Origin: an uncultured Anaerolineales bacterium
Lineage (GTDB): Bacteria > Chloroflexota > Anaerolineae > Anaerolineales > Villigracilaceae
Assembly (NCBI GenBank): GCA_937960595.1
Contig: CALGPL010000024.1
Coordinates: 1-64,000, forward strand
Length of the DNA: 64,000 nt
Reading direction: 5' to 3'
The notes under the pieces were generated by a model. That model saw nothing but the letters and a program-made list of their open reading frames with translations. It had not been told where the DNA came from and ran no database searches. A program made the translations under genes and the position numbers. The stretch's first letter is position 1. Each line of letters begins with the position of its first letter. Of the stretch, positions 33,084-43,281 are shown piece after piece.

Positions 33084-36000
33084 ATGCCTGTCTATCGTTT
33101 CATTGTTCGTTTCCAGCGCGCCGACGATCCGCGTTCCGTCGGCCTGCTTGCCGATGCCCGTGCCCTGGGCTTGACTGCTCTGGCGTGTATCCAATGCCAG
33201 GACCTCTTCTTCATCGAGGGCCAACTGTCGCCGGACGAATGTCAGCAGTTGGCCCGCTCGCTTTTAATTGACCCGCTGACTCAATCGTTTGATTGGCGCG
33301 AACTCCCCGCCTCTCCTGCCGACCCGCCGCCTGGCGCGCTCATAGTCGAGGTGGCCCTGCGCCCCGGCGTCACCGACCCGGTGGCTGATGAAATCGTCCG
33401 CGCCGCTCACCAACTCGGTCTGACCGGCGTCCGCCGCGCCGCCACCGGCCTCCGTTATCTTTTCTTCTTTGCCCCCTCCGCCTCCATCCGCGAATCCGTG
33501 ACCCAATCCGTTCCCGTCCGCGCTTCCGCGACAGAGTCCGTGACAAACTCCGTGACCCAATCCGTTTCCGTCCGTGAATCCGTGACAAAGTCCGTGACAG
33601 AGTCCGTTATCGAATCCGTGATCAACCCCGTCATCCACCGCTGGGCGCTGGGCGAAATCGAACCGTCCTTCCCGGTCGAGGCCGAATCGAGCGGCGCGGT
33701 CGAGACCCTCCGCCTGCGCGGGCTGACAGATGAAGCCTTGTTGGCCCTTTCTGCCCAACGCCGCGCTGCCCTCGACCTGGCCGAGATGCAGGCCCTCCGC
33801 GCCTACTGCGAGCGCGAAGGCCGCGACCTGACCGATGTCGAGTTCGAGACCATCGCCCAGACCTGGTCCGAGCATTGTGTCCACAAGACCTTCAAAGCCC
33901 TGATCGAGATTGAAAATTCCCTCGACGGCGGTCTGCCGTCCGTCGTCAACGGTCCGTCATCCACCGTCAACGGCCTCTTCAACACCTACATCCGCGCCGC
34001 CACCGAAAAGATTGCCGCTCCCTGGGTACTCTCTGCGTTTGTGGACAACGCCGGCGTCATTGACCTGGACGGCGAAAACGAAATCTCCTTCAAAGTCGAG
34101 ACCCACAACCACCCCTCGGCCATCGAACCCTTCGGCGGGGCCAACACCGGCGTCGGCGGGGTGATTCGTGATGTGCTGGGCGTTTCGCACAAGCCGATCG
34201 CCAACACCGATGTCCTGTGCTTCGGCATGCAGGATACCCCCTTCGATGAACTTCCCCCCGGCGTGCTGCACCCGCGCCGGATTTTTTCGGGCGTCGTGGC
34301 CGGGGTGCAGGATTACGGCAACAAGATGGGCATCCCGACCGTCAACGGCGCGATTCTCTTCGACCCCGGCTATGCTGCCAATCCGCTCGTCTTCTGCGGG
34401 ACGGTCGGCATCGCGCCGCGCCGACGGAGCGGGAGCGGCCCGCGTCCCGGCGACCGGGTGGTCGTCCTCGGCGGCGGCACCGGACGCGATGGCCTGCGCG
34501 GGGCGACCTTCTCCTCGATGACGATGGACGCCCAGACGGGCCAGGTCTCCGGCGCCTCGGTGCAGATCGGCAATCCCATCGTCGAAAAAGGCCTGGTGGA
34601 CGTCATCCTGCCGGCGCGTGAGCGCGGCCTCTACACCGCCATCACCGATTGCGGCGCGGGCGGCCTCTCCTCGGCGGTCGGCGAAATGGCCTCGCGCACC
34701 GGCTGCGAGGTCGAACTGGCGCAGGTGCGGCTCAAGTACCCCGGCCTGGCGCCCTGGGAAATCTGGCTCTCGGAGGCCCAGGAGCGGATGGTACTGGCCG
34801 TCCCGCCCGAAGCCCTGCCTGCCTTGCAGGAATTGTGCAACTTGCATGATGTGACTTTGATGGACATCGGCGAGTTCACCGCCTCCGGCCGCCTGGTCGT
34901 CCGGTACGGCGGGCGGGTCGTCCTCGACCTCGACAACGAATTCCTGCACCACGGCATCCCTCAACGCAAATTGAAGGCGACTCTTCCGGCAGCAGCATCC
35001 GGCGATTCGCTCGACCATTCATCTTCTACCGTCCACCGTCCCCCGTCCATTGTCCCCCGTCCCCCGTCCCCTGTCCATTCCCCGCTGCCCCACGTTGACC
35101 CCGCCCAGACTCTCCTGCGCCTCCTCGCCCACCCCAACATTGTCTCCAAGGCCGAGGTCATCCGCATCTACGACCACGAGGTGCAGGGCGGGACGGCGGT
35201 CAAGCCGCTGACCGGCGCGCAGATGGACGCGCCCTCCGACGCCTGCGTCCTGCGTCCGCTTGGGGCGCGGGGACGGGCCGGGATCGCCCTCGCCAACGGA
35301 ATCAACCCCGAGTACGGCAAGCGCGATCCCTACCGCATGGCCATGGCCGTCGTGGACGAGGCGGTGCGCAACCTGGTCGCCGTCGGCGCCGACCCGGCCC
35401 GCATCGCCCTGCTCGACAACTTCTGTTGGGGCGACCCGCTGCGCCCGGAGACGCTCGGCGCCCTGGTCGAGGCGGCGCGCGGCTGTCACGATGCCGCCCT
35501 CCTTTTCGGCGCGCCGTTCATTTCGGGCAAAGATTCGCTCAACAACGAATACCTCGGCGCCGACGGCCAGCGTCACGCCATCCCCCCGACCCTGCTCATC
35601 TCGTCCATCGGCGTCATGGCCGACGTGACCCGGGCAATCACAATGGACTTGAAAGAGGCCGGCAACCTGCTCTACCTGATCGGCGACTTTGCCCCCACCT
35701 TTGGCGGCAGCCACTTCCACCTGGCGGCCTCCGGCCTTTGTCCGCCGGCCACGCTCAACGAACCCGTGCCGTCGGTCTCCGCAAGGACCCCCGGCGTGTA
35801 CGCCGCCCTGCACCGCGCCATCGCCTCGGGCCTTGTCCGCGCCGCGCACGATCTTTCGGAGGGCGGACTGGCCGTCGCCGCGGCGGAAATGTGCATCGGC
35901 GGACGCCTCGGCCTCGACCTCGACCTGCCGCCCGGCGACCCTCTGCGCCTCCTCTTCGGCGAGACGACCGGCTGCCTGCTCGTCGAAGTCGCCCCGCTGC

Positions 36001-40024: not shown

Positions 40025-41344
40025 ATGAAAGTATTGCTGATTGGGTCAGGCGGGCGGGAACATGCGATGGCCTGGAAGGCGGCGCAGTCGCCGAAGTTGA
40101 CCCGTCTCTACGCTGCGCCGGGCAATCCGGGGATGGCGGGGCTGGCGGAATGTGTTCCGCTGCGGCCGGAGGACCACGGCGCAGTGGTCGGCTTCTGCCG
40201 CGAAAAGGGAATTGACCTTGTCCTCATCGGTCCGGAGGCGCCGCTGGCGGCGGGTCTCGCGGACGATCTGCGGGCAGCCGGATTTCGGGTCTTCGGCCCG
40301 TCGAAGGACGCGGCGCAAATCGAGGCTTCCAAGGTCTTCGCCAAGCACTTCATGGCGCGGCACGGCATCCCGACGGCGCGCTATGCGGTCTTTCAGCGGT
40401 ATGCCGAGGCGGCCAGGTTTGTCGAGGCGGTGGATTATCCCTTCGTCGTCAAGGCCTCCGGATTGGCGGCGGGCAAGGGCGTGATTCTGCCCGTCACAAA
40501 AGAGGAAGCCCTGGCCGCGCTGGAGGCGGTCATGGTGCGGCGCGAGTTCGGCGCGGCCGGTGGAGAAGTGGTCATCGAGGAACGTTTGAGCGGGCCGGAG
40601 GTCTCGCTGATGGCGTTCTGTGACGGGCGGCGGGTGGCGCCGATGCCGCCGGCGCAGGATCACAAACGTCTGCTGGACGGCGACCAGGGGCCGAACACGG
40701 GCGGGATGGGCGCGTACGCCCCGGCGCCGATGTGTCCGCCGGAGATGGTGGATGAAATCGTCGAGACGGTTCTCCGGCCGGCAGTCAGCGGTCTGCGGCT
40801 GGAGAGGAGGCCGTTCGTCGGCGTGCTGTATGCCGGGCTGATGTTGACCGAACGCGGTCCGCAGGTGCTGGAGTTCAACTGCCGTTTCGGCGACCCGGAG
40901 ACGCAGGCGGTTCTGCCTCTGCTGGAGGCGGATTTGCTCGAAGTTACGCTGGCTTGTGCCGAGGGGCGCCTCGACGAGGTCGAGATTCGCTGGCAGGGCG
41001 GCGCGGCGGTCTGCGTGGTGCTGGCGTCGGCGGGCTATCCTGCCGCGCCGGAGACGGGCAGGCCGATCCGCGGCTTGGAGGCGCTGCCCGAGGATGTGCT
41101 GTGCTTCCATGCCGGGACAAAGTCTGTGGACGGGCAAATTGTCACGGCGGGCGGGCGCGTCCTGGGCCTGGCGGCGCAGGCAAAGACGCTGGGCAAGGCA
41201 GTCGAGAAGGTGTATCAGGCGGTGGAAAGGGTGGAGTTCGAGGGGAGGCAGTATCGGCGGGACATTGCTTTTAGCGGACTTGTCACGGAATCACGGATTG
41301 AAACGGATTTCTTTAGCGGACCTGGTCACGGAATCGCGGATTGA
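40025..41344 (+). CDS. purD: Phosphoribosylamine-glycine ligase with a repeat-derived C-terminal tail
   Basis: 439 residues from the ATG at 40025. ATP-grasp enzyme making GAR: MKVLLIGSGGREHAMAWKA, VLIGPEAPLAAGLADDL, YPFVVKASGLAAGKGV, DHKRLLDGDQGPNTGGMGAYAP and EFNCRFGDPETQAVLP. The normal family end is near YRRDIAFSGL. The frame then continues into the 43-bp repeat array and adds about 20 residues (TESRIETDFFSGPGHGIAD) before stopping inside the second repeat unit. The tail is therefore encoded by invading repeat DNA. Confidence 0.95.
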   Translation: MKVLLIGSGGREHAMAWKAAQSPKLTRLYAAPGNPGMAGLAECVPLRPEDHGAVVGFCREKGIDLVLIGPEAPLAAGLADDLRAAGFRVFGPSKDAAQIEASKVFAKHFMARHGIPTARYAVFQRYAEAARFVEAVDYPFVVKASGLAAGKGVILPVTKEEALAALEAVMVRREFGAAGGEVVIEERLSGPEVSLMAFCDGRRVAPMPPAQDHKRLLDGDQGPNTGGMGAYAPAPMCPPEMVDEIVETVLRPAVSGLRLERRPFVGVLYAGLMLTERGPQVLEFNCRFGDPETQAVLPLLEADLLEVTLACAEGRLDEVEIRWQGGAAVCVVLASAGYPAAPETGRPIRGLEALPEDVLCFHAGTKSVDGQIVTAGGRVLGLAAQAKTLGKAVEKVYQAVERVEFEGRQYRRDIAFSGLVTESRIETDFFSGPGHGIAD

Positions 41345-41480
41345 AACGGATTTCTTTAGCGGACCTGGTCACGGAATCACGGATTGGAACGGATTTCTTT
41401 AGCGGACTTGTCACGGAATCACGGATTGGAACGGATTAGAGTCACGGATTACGAATCACGGATCACGAATCACGGATTTT
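41269..41480 (-). repeat. Array of 42-43 bp repeats between purD and the purM fusion (inverted left arm)
   Basis: Four units start near 41269, 41309, 41352 and 41395. Each reads TTCTTTAGCGGAC, then GGTCACGGAATCACGG, then ATTGAAACGGAT. A decayed end of CACGGATTACGAATCACGG words runs to about 41480. Reverse complement of a unit matches the 42-bp units at 42064-42273 along their length (ATCCGTTCC, TCCGTGATTCCGTGAC, AAGTCCG). Confidence 0.9.
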
Positions 41481-41499
41481 TGGCCAGAGAGGAGGACTC

Positions 41500-43281
41500 G
41501 TGAAGAACAGACCTGGTTTGGTAAAGACGCCTTTGGATGAACTGACGTACAAGGTCAATGGCTTGGCGATGCAGGTTCACCGGGAGTTGAAAGCAGGACA
41601 CAGGGAGGTCTTTTATCAACGCCGGCTCGCGGAACTGTGCCGGCAAGCCGAACTGCAAGTTGAAATGGAAAAGCGCGTCGAGGTTTGGGTTGGTGAGCAG
41701 TTGGTGGGATATCTCTACATTGACCTGTGGATCGAGGACTGTTTGGTGGTCGAGTGCAAGGCACTCAACCACGATTTGACAGATGATGAACTCAGTCAGG
41801 TGCTGGTATATCTGGCCGCGACCGGCGCGCCGGTGGGGATGCTTTACAATTTTGGCCAGCCCAGTTTGGAATTCCGCCGCGTCCTGCGTCCGCAGCCGGT
41901 TCAGGATTGGCAAAAATATCTGTTTCGCTTTGTCTGGACGCCGCGGCCTGCTCCTTCGTTTCCCGCCTCCGACGAAACCTCGCAGCCCATCCGCTTTTCG
42001 GTGGTCAGTCCGTTTGCTTTGCAATCGCCTGTCATCCAATCCGTCCCCGCCTCTGAAACGCAATCCGTTCCCGTCCGCGAATCCGTGAAAAAATCCGAGG
42101 AAAAATCCGCTCCCCTCCGTGAATCCGCGAACAAATCCGAGGAGAAATCCGTTCCCGTCCGCGAATCCGCGAACAAATCCGAGGAGAAATCCGCTCCCCT
42201 CCGTGAATCCGTGACAGAGTCCGTGAATCCATCCGCTCCCCTCCGTGAATCCGCGAAAAAGTCCGTTAACCGCTACGCTGCCTCCGGCGTCTCCATTGAC
42301 GCCGGCAACCGCGCCGTTGAACTGATGTGGGATGCCGTCCGGTCCACCTACGGCCCGGAGGTGCTGGCCGGGATCGGGGCTTTTGGCGGCTTGTACGACG
42401 CCGCGGCGCTCAAAGGGATGCAGTCGCCGGTGCTGGTCGCCTCGACCGACGGCGTCGGGACGAAAGTCAAACTGGCCGCCGCGGCGGGCCGCTATCGTTC
42501 CATCGGTCACGACATTGTCAATCATTGTATTGACGACATTCTGGTTCAGGGCGCCCGCCCGTTGTTCTTTCTGGATTACTTCGCGACCGCCAAACTGGAG
42601 CCGCAGATCGTCGCCGAGGTGGTGACCGGCATCTCGGAAGCCTGCCGCGCGGCAGGCATGGCCCTGCTCGGCGGCGAGACCGCCGAGATGCCCGGCGTCT
42701 ATGCCGAGGGTGAGTTCGACCTGGCCGGGACGATCGTCGGCGTGTTGGAGCGCGAGTTTGCTTTGCCGCGCCCCGACCTCCGCCCCGGCGACCTCCTGGT
42801 TGGCCTCCGTTCGTCCGGCCCGCACACCAACGGCTACTCGCTCATCCGCCGCGTCTTCGATGGGCTTCCGCTCGAGACGGTCTTTCCCGAACTGGGCATT
42901 TCCCTGGCCGACGCCCTGCTCGAACCGCATCGTTCCTATCTCAGCCTTTTATGGCCCATTCTCAGCAGTCCATCCTCCCCGGTGAAAGCCCTTGCCCATC
43001 TGACCGGCGGAGGCTTTGTCGAGAATATTCCGCGCCTTCTGCCCAAGGGCCTCGGCGCGGTCATCCGCCGCGGGTCCTGGCCGGTGCCGCCGCTGTTCGA
43101 CCTGATTCGGGAACGTGGCGGCGTGGACTGGTATGAGATGCATCGCGTCTTCAACATGGGCATCGGCATGGTTGCGATGATGGCACCGGATAAAGTGGAC
43201 GATTTCCGGGCTGCTCTTGGCGAATCGGCCTGGATCATTGGAGAACTTGTCCCCGGCGAATGTAAAGTCATTTTGGAATAA
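41500..43281 (+). CDS. purM: GxxExxY protein fused through a repeat linker to AIR synthetase (PurM)
   Basis: 593 residues from a GTG at 41500 (GGAGGA upstream). Residues 1-~150 are a GxxExxY-family domain: G33-E36-Y39 in AGHREVFYQRRL, then IDLWIEDCLVVECKAL with D75 and E85-x-K87, the PD-(D/E)XK nuclease-like signature. Residues 189-257 are five 14-residue repeats of the form S-V/A-P-V/L-R-E-S-x-x-K-S-E-E-K. PurM starts at about 263 (ASGVSIDAGNRAVELM) with VASTDGVGTKVKLA, HCIDDILVQGARPLFFLDY, LGGETAEMPGVY, RSSGPHTNGYSLIRR and HLTGGGFVENIPRLLP. It makes AIR from FGAM. The fusion is unusual; an internal start before PurM is not obvious, so the long protein may be real. Confidence 0.88.
   Translation: MKNRPGLVKTPLDELTYKVNGLAMQVHRELKAGHREVFYQRRLAELCRQAELQVEMEKRVEVWVGEQLVGYLYIDLWIEDCLVVECKALNHDLTDDELSQVLVYLAATGAPVGMLYNFGQPSLEFRRVLRPQPVQDWQKYLFRFVWTPRPAPSFPASDETSQPIRFSVVSPFALQSPVIQSVPASETQSVPVRESVKKSEEKSAPLRESANKSEEKSVPVRESANKSEEKSAPLRESVTESVNPSAPLRESAKKSVNRYAASGVSIDAGNRAVELMWDAVRSTYGPEVLAGIGAFGGLYDAAALKGMQSPVLVASTDGVGTKVKLAAAAGRYRSIGHDIVNHCIDDILVQGARPLFFLDYFATAKLEPQIVAEVVTGISEACRAAGMALLGGETAEMPGVYAEGEFDLAGTIVGVLEREFALPRPDLRPGDLLVGLRSSGPHTNGYSLIRRVFDGLPLETVFPELGISLADALLEPHRSYLSLLWPILSSPSSPVKALAHLTGGGFVENIPRLLPKGLGAVIRRGSWPVPPLFDLIRERGGVDWYEMHRVFNMGIGMVAMMAPDKVDDFRAALGESAWIIGELVPGECKVILE
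42064..42273 (+). repeat. Five exact-period 42-bp repeats inside the purM fusion (right arm)
   Basis: Units start at 42064, 42106, 42148, 42190 and 42232. The period is exactly 42, that is 14 codons, so the frame is preserved. Two alternating variants differ by TCCGTTCCCGTCC and TCCGCTCCCCTCC. An irregular lead-in with the same words starts near 42030. Confidence 0.95.

Follow-up and report, generated by a model that had tools for sequence, protein, structure and literature searches.

How did a small protein of the GxxExxY family come to be joined to PurM, between two inverted arrays of short repeats, at the purD-purM junction of an uncultured Anaerolineales bacterium? The junction lies in a stretch of 64,000 nucleotides (the window; assembly GCA_937960595.1, contig CALGPL010000024.1, positions 1 to 64,000). 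GxxExxY proteins are widespread, often present in multiple copies and without an assigned function. We lean slightly towards reading the window copy as descended, by domestication, from a mobile element of an undescribed class, the "GxxExxY element", which would be REPtron-like in plan and carry a PD-(D/E)XK nuclease. On a wider proposal we are evenly divided: that GxxExxY genes are autonomous elements across phyla, whose nuclease recognises copy-specific words of 9-10 bp and moves or copies arrays and geneless derivatives into gene junctions and, in whole codons, into coding genes, and that here such an element was captured by PurM while its arrays are still spreading. The features of the window on which these readings draw are listed below.

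41270..41437, plus strand: left arm; the words TCACGGA / CACGGATT / AACGGATT / TAGCGGAC make up four units of 42-43 bp, found with Tandem Repeats Finder (TRF); non-coding except for the purD tail to 41344.
41438..41478, plus strand: inner end of the left arm, degenerate, with partial words of the ACGGATTACGAATC type (period 14 / 7).
41490..41502, plus strand: AGGAGG ribosome-binding sequence, then the GTG start at 41500 (sequence, start of the open reading frame, ORF).
41500..43281, plus strand: gene for the GxxExxY-linker-PurM fusion, 593 aa (profile matches; same fusion in 10 further genomes).
41539..41883, plus strand: GxxExxY / PDDEXK_3 domain with G33, E36, Y39, D75, E85-x-K87 and Q100xxxY104 (PF13366, TIGR04256, AlphaFold2 model).
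42062..42265, plus strand: right arm, 4.9 in-frame 42-bp units, reverse complement of the left-arm words, encoding an ESV-rich linker (TRF).
42274..43281, plus strand: PurM (AIR synthetase) domain (TIGR00878).
33487..33621, plus strand: in-frame array in the linker of PurS-PurL, built of the same words and lacking a GxxExxY gene (repeat and word scans).

TRF resolved the left array into 4.0 units with a period of 43 bp and 94% matches, spaced at 43, 43 and 42 bp, and the right array into 4.9 units with a period of 42 bp and 84% matches. The two arrays are inverted relative to each other, with arms that are 72-84% complementary over a separation of ~620-870 bp. An earlier note on this DNA had described the four left units and the opposite orientation correctly; it had also read five exact units on the right, where the length is indeed exact (42 bp, or 14 codons, at every spacing) but the sequences differ. 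Spacings that are all 42 bp on the right and 43/43/42 on the left are expected if the right arm alone is protein-coding. No stop codon closes the purD frame where the PurD domain ends; the frame continues for ~25 codons into the left array and stops there at 41344. The motif AATCCGYGA occurs 15 times in the window, compared to 1.6 expected from shuffles, and 14 of these occurrences fall inside the arrays at 33.5, 41.3-41.5 and 42.1-42.3 kb. As had been claimed, the ORF stays open through PurM as a single frame: its GxxExxY domain (residues 14-128) scores 86 bits against TIGR04256 (cut-off 35) and 80.8 bits against PF13366 (cut-off 22), and its PurM domain (residues 259-583) scores 338 bits against TIGR00878 (equivalog-level cut-off 236). 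The G-x-x-E-x-x-Y residues and the D75, E85-x-K87 core stand where the earlier note had placed them. The purD read-through, the PurS-PurL array, four other GxxExxY genes and the fusion in relatives are points that it did not contain.

We assessed the GxxExxY domain by structure prediction and found high model confidence for both the window domain (pLDDT, the per-residue confidence score, 92.6) and a canonical copy (92.1). The nearest solved fold of the window model is the Cas4-family nuclease SSO0001 (4ic1; Foldseek probability 1.00, E 7.8e-5; VIA Z 10.7, root-mean-square deviation 4.1, 110 residues), followed by lower matches to AdnA, LHK-Exo and MGME1 and to the Holliday-junction resolvase Hjc (Z 7.6). 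According to the model, the domain has a restriction-endonuclease-like fold of PD-(D/E)XK type, in the Cas4/RecB-like subgroup. It has in common with SSO0001, AdnA, LHK-Exo and MGME1 the core fold, the D-E-x-K residues and QxxxY; unlike these nucleases, GxxExxY is much smaller and shows no iron-sulphur cluster domain. We take the invariant Q100 and Y104 to be the QxxxY motif of RecB/Cas4 nucleases. GxxExxY is a predicted nuclease, with the catalytic residues for metal-dependent DNA cleavage in place. Searches found no sequence relative among the solved structures of the PDB, no convincing match in a defence-system library, one weak match among phage proteins (to a family of unknown function) and none in phage records. 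Matches on plasmids came to 8 records.

A profile search in other genomes returned further GxxExxY domains in open frames of 531-571 aa. Together with the genome of the window (G000; G-numbers denote the genomes compared), the GxxExxY-linker-PurM fusion is present in eight genomes of the window's family (the others being G001, G275, G006, G103, G305, G029 and G004). In a search of 298 genomes of the class, full-length fusions also occur in two more families (G451, G469 and G462), giving 11 genomes in three families, and PurM is unfused in most other families. On the PurM tree, the fused state requires 3 changes compared to 9.3 after shuffling, and the fusion may have a single origin. The linker differs in length and repeats among genera: it carries ESV repeats in G000, G001, G103 and G029, and is short and repeat-poor in G275, G006, G305 and G004. 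Between G000 and G001, the ratio of nonsynonymous to synonymous substitutions is 0.043 for the GxxExxY domain and 0.087 for PurM, and both the G-x-x-E-x-x-Y residues and the catalytic residues (D, E, K plus QxxxY) are invariant in 8 fused and 26 canonical GxxExxY proteins. Because the fusion is conserved, the substitution ratio low and the catalytic residues invariant, the window domain is, judged by sequence, a domesticated and functional domain rather than a fresh insertion. The idea of a recent in-frame insertion at purM, put forward in the earlier note, was rejected on the conservation of the fusion in relatives. By that note's own standard, a fusion conserved throughout the class would speak against its reading: three families do share the fusion, which comes near to that state, and most families have none. 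At the eleven fused loci, the left and right arms of a locus match each other better than they match other loci (mean score 55.8 vs 30.3), so that both arms evolve together even at a vertically inherited gene.

A conserved fusion would also be expected if GxxExxY were an ordinary domain of PurM that was never mobile and the repeats were low-complexity linkers expanded by slippage, and the repeats can be dispensed with, as seen in G305 and G004, whose linkers are repeat-free. We give this explanation very little credence. The left arm, mostly non-coding, carries these words in the opposite orientation, a pattern that slippage in a linker cannot produce; unfused GxxExxY genes in >15 phyla show the same inverted architecture, and the words recur in unrelated genes. 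The first two of these points led us to reject a slippage-only linker. As a separate observation, PurM of G610 (L178) lies in a 799-aa open frame with PurD-like sequence immediately upstream, which suggests another repeat-linked fusion at the purD-purM junction.

The inverted arms are not peculiar to purM. The window's own genome has four other GxxExxY genes, each between inverted word arrays, with words that differ per copy (CACAGATT/CACGGATT, CGCGGATT, GCAGATG and CGCCAAG). For a general measure, we aligned the 300 bp upstream of each gene to the reverse complement of the 300 bp downstream and used shifted windows as controls. Inverted flanks exceeded the 99th percentile of the controls for 52 of the 77 GxxExxY genes of Chloroflexota relatives (P 3e-17) and for 64/80 measurable genes from >15 phyla, taken from named genomes including cultured ones (P 2e-29). 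The expectation that GxxExxY ORFs are regularly flanked by inverted arrays thus held far beyond the class. In a scan of ORFs of 80-260 aa, the threshold was passed by 51% of GxxExxY genes compared to 0.9% of 2154 other ORFs. The top-scoring other ORFs mostly overlap GxxExxY genes, and the remainder are three Y1_Tnp (IS200-like) transposases. This class is known for flanking repeats, and its recovery serves as an internal positive control. Arms are weak or lacking at the copies in Sphingomonas fabD-fabG and on a Treponema plasmid, so the architecture is not universal.

The arms share a common plan, with an AACC-like outer end followed typically by three CRCNRAK words at 8-11-bp spacing, mirrored on the opposite side. 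Either side may be enlarged to tandem units of ~36-43 bp, each of three words and a spacer; the 42-43-bp units of the window are a case of this expansion. Upstream arms start <=8 bp from the upstream stop codon in 18/76 cases, compared to 8/755 control points. The arms lie close to the GxxExxY domain (median ~48 bp upstream and ~50 bp downstream) and the words recur about once per helical turn, as would be the case if they were operators bound by GxxExxY or a partner, with their two-sided presence due to duplication. Such autoregulation leaves the inverted downstream arms, the geneless palindromes at junctions and the arrays inside other coding regions unexplained, and we consider it highly improbable.

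We next consider how the words relate to the protein, for which we assigned each word to one of two groups by its final letter (..RAG or ..RAT) on a tree of 91 GxxExxY domains. Word class changes 3 times on this tree, compared to a shuffled mean of 22.7, and 0/500 shuffles were as low. Few columns underlie the tree and many of its forks are open, to which the coupling test is robust but statements about single branches are not. With that reservation, a CGCCAAG clade comprises two Chloroflexota proteins and one from Planctomycetota, and a CRCAGATT clade unites Planctomycetota, Acidobacteriota, Verrucomicrobiota and one copy of the own genome. Mantel tests agree that words track protein. In one slot, the GxxExxY copies of G000 and G001 differ in word type, and their proteins have diverged.

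To follow the words within the own genome, ~1.19 Mb (48%) of it was read in stretches, and arrays outside purD-purM were located by protein matches and tandem-repeat scans. Arrays of the TCACGGA words lie in the two purM arms, the PurS-PurL linker, an inositol-monophosphatase-like (IMPase-like) gene, mtnA and two other places; two of these are as follows.

L296 7249-7443: array in the IMPase-like gene (PF00459), in frame.
L333 533-601: array in mtnA (PF01008), in frame.

In the IMPase-like (L252/L296, L253) and MtnA-like (L333) enzymes, which are conserved, the arrays form ESV-type in-frame repeat insertions of 40-70 residues, and the IMPase-like gene of G001 (L253) has its array at the same place as the own-genome copy. 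All coding arrays share one orientation and frame and consist of direct tandem units. The claim that the repeats enter host genes without breaking the frame is thereby upheld for PurS-PurL, the IMPase-like gene and MtnA. Several relatives have a PurS-PurL linker that is short or poor in repeats. An exact-pattern search of the whole own genome for paired AATCCGYGA returned the purD-purM locus alone, because the words vary; word triples of the general type number 43 in the 1.19 Mb compared to 0 in a shuffle, and many of them are geneless palindromes between genes; many lie away from any GxxExxY gene.

These geneless palindromes fold strongly, at about -20 to -49 kcal/mol, and could point to a role in RNA, in which the arms pair in the transcript to form a stem with the ORF in its loop, this stem is processed or stabilises the operon mRNA, and mobility is incidental. 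In keeping with this, a four-helix-bundle family that shares such cassettes is the S23 protein family of intervening sequences (IVS). We judge this reading improbable: mismatches between the arms of gene-bearing elements show no bias to G-U-compatible pairs (218 compatible vs 311 incompatible), the positions of the words are conserved and their pairing is not, with stems broken at each word's variable letter, and of the two arms in the window, the right is coding and the left mostly non-coding. For an RNA stem as the selected feature, this wobble test gave no support.

Several further observations were made on these repeats. PurL carries two further in-frame insertions (window 35028-35077 and 33929-33973) made of a 7-bp word (ACCGTCC) and related words, a class that resembles the words flanking four-helix-bundle genes elsewhere. 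In purL of G001 (L256), a tandem duplication spans host sequence (VIHRWALGEIEPSFPVEAESS) plus array, which suggests recombination between repeats. Contig ends of G000 (L267, L295, L297, L312 and L314) share a near-identical sequence (GAACTGATTTAACCTTTTCC...) with CACAGAT triples; it is a multi-copy element that breaks the assembly.

Gene junctions compared between genomes show that the cassettes come and go. At the pdhB-E2 junction, the content of the slot differs among genomes of one genus and takes the following forms.

GxxExxY gene in a cassette of CRCAGAG words.
Palindrome of CACAAAG/CGCCAAG-type words that lacks a gene.
Gene for a four-helix-bundle protein (TIGR02436), accompanied by 7-bp words of one of two kinds.
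Palindromic repeat of a further type, with the ends GTCATTCT...AGAATGACA (L225, L348, L358).
Empty allele of 12 bp.

On a pdhB tree of 29 genomes, slot content changes 14 times compared to 17.0 after shuffling. The stop codon of the upstream gene is set by the type of cassette: GxxExxY and geneless cassettes come with TAA, and the two four-helix-bundle kinds bring mostly GTTGA, or AGTGA/AGTAA, to the end of the upstream gene. Comparison of empty and filled alleles places the cassette end at or near the stop codon. At purD-purM in another family, G444 has an unfused GxxExxY cassette with CAGAG words; in its congener G396 a geneless array of 95 bp takes that place, and the sequences on either side are 88-90% identical. 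The earlier note had proposed to look for purD-purM junctions without the cassette, and this pair supplies one; the unfused cassette of G444 most likely shows the ancestral state of the window fusion. Its view of the GxxExxY gene and the inverted arrays as one unit also agrees with these slots, which such units occupy and leave. Separately, we observed four-helix-bundle (TIGR02436/S23) cassettes with inverted 7-bp arrays (CAGTTAT, GTTGATA) at L207, L209, L213, L217 and L223, in the pdhB-E2 slot that also takes GxxExxY cassettes, apparently a parallel, undescribed element class.

That two unrelated proteins occupy equivalent inverted-word cassettes in the same slot, and that many palindromes are geneless, favours the main rival to our interpretation. 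Here, the word arrays would be ends resembling miniature inverted-repeat transposable elements (MITEs) or repetitive extragenic palindromic (REP) sequences, moved by an enzyme acting in trans or by host recombination, and GxxExxY and the four-helix-bundle protein would be cargo that benefits, for example as regulators or accessory factors. We think this unlikely, since word type follows GxxExxY clade across phyla, the word classes differ in period (9-10 for GxxExxY vs 7 for the four-helix bundle), and GxxExxY retains a full nuclease active site under strong constraint.

From the word-protein coupling, the concerted arms and the conserved catalytic residues, we infer that GxxExxY recognises the words and drives movement; that the nuclease drives the spread of the element, as the earlier note had surmised, is plausible. 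Several points weigh against a GxxExxY element that moves itself. The 300-bp flank test detected no inverted flank in ~20% of the cross-phylum copies (n=80), and the Sphingomonas fabD-fabG copy is one without a detectable inverted flank. No clear target-site duplication was seen at the slots when empty and filled alleles were compared, where cassette-specific stops blur the border. Slot turnover could reflect homologous recombination between the flanks rather than the element's own mobility, and word-protein coupling could arise from physical linkage alone. Finally, as four-helix-bundle cassettes with other words share the slots, the small protein may itself be carried along, with another factor moving all of them.

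The GxxExxY element that we propose consists of two inverted arms that enclose a gene for a predicted ~125-aa PD-(D/E)XK (Cas4/RecB-like) nuclease. Each arm typically has three 9-10-bp words (CRCNRAK type, about one helical turn each), at times expanded to tandem units of ~36-43 bp. The element sits at gene junctions, often directly from the upstream stop codon, with geneless palindromes of the same words elsewhere, and cassettes and palindromes substitute for each other at fixed slots. The nuclease would bind the words of its own copy and cut, and repair or recombination would place copies of the element or of its arrays at junctions or at sites that resemble the words. The purD-purM element of a lineage ancestral to the window's would have lost its stop codon and become the N-terminal domain of PurM. 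The fused domain is still under selection and its arms keep evolving jointly, and the window's words have spread in frame into PurS-PurL, the IMPase-like enzyme and MtnA.

The association links the GxxExxY family to much unexplained short-repeat DNA and suggests a function that can be tested. Should the nuclease recognise the words of its own copy, the many naturally matched pairs of protein and word, which differ in sequence, would allow a DNA-recognition code to be read out. At the slots, small cassettes are exchanged in core operons within one genus, and the arrays offer a route from repeat DNA to new linkers and fusions (GxxExxY-PurM, PurS-PurL) with frames intact. In the open-licence literature searched, we found no description of flanking word arrays, mobility or a PurM fusion for GxxExxY and no mention of the repeat words; GxxExxY is mentioned there in passing and PF13366 in an unrelated context. 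The element class appears to be new, and may have been described earlier outside that literature.

Among known systems, REPtrons (REPIN-RAYT) combine a HUH transposase of the Y1 class, flanked by inverted REPs, with dispersed REPINs, which are non-autonomous. The GxxExxY element resembles them in its small nuclease-type gene, inverted short repeats and dispersed geneless palindromes. In contrast to the Y1 transposase of REPtrons (PF01797), GxxExxY matches PF13366/TIGR04256 and not PF01797, and for this reason the GxxExxY element is not a REPtron. Its repeats are tandem, copy-specific 9-10-bp words rather than imperfect hairpin REPs, and coding genes also contain its arrays in frame. Known IVS are found within rRNA genes and excised from the RNA. 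The 23S rRNA IVS with an S23/four-helix-bundle ORF is like a GxxExxY cassette in having a small ORF within inverted repeats, and its protein family occupies the same operon slot; however, GxxExxY cassettes lie at protein-gene junctions and show no sense-RNA pairing signature in the mismatches between arms, and their protein is of PD-(D/E)XK type rather than S23/four-helix-bundle, which sets them outside the IVS. The Coxiella IVS with an S23p ORF is described as a selfish element (PMC4990558). Rickettsia palindromic elements (RPE) are, like the window's words, short in-frame repeats in essential protein genes. Their unit is a palindromic hairpin, whereas the coding arrays of the window are direct tandem 42-bp (14-codon) arrays without a palindrome, with words shared with the flanks of the GxxExxY-PurM gene of the same genome. 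In conclusion, REPtrons, IVS and RPE are parallels in building plan, and the GxxExxY element belongs by definition to none of them.

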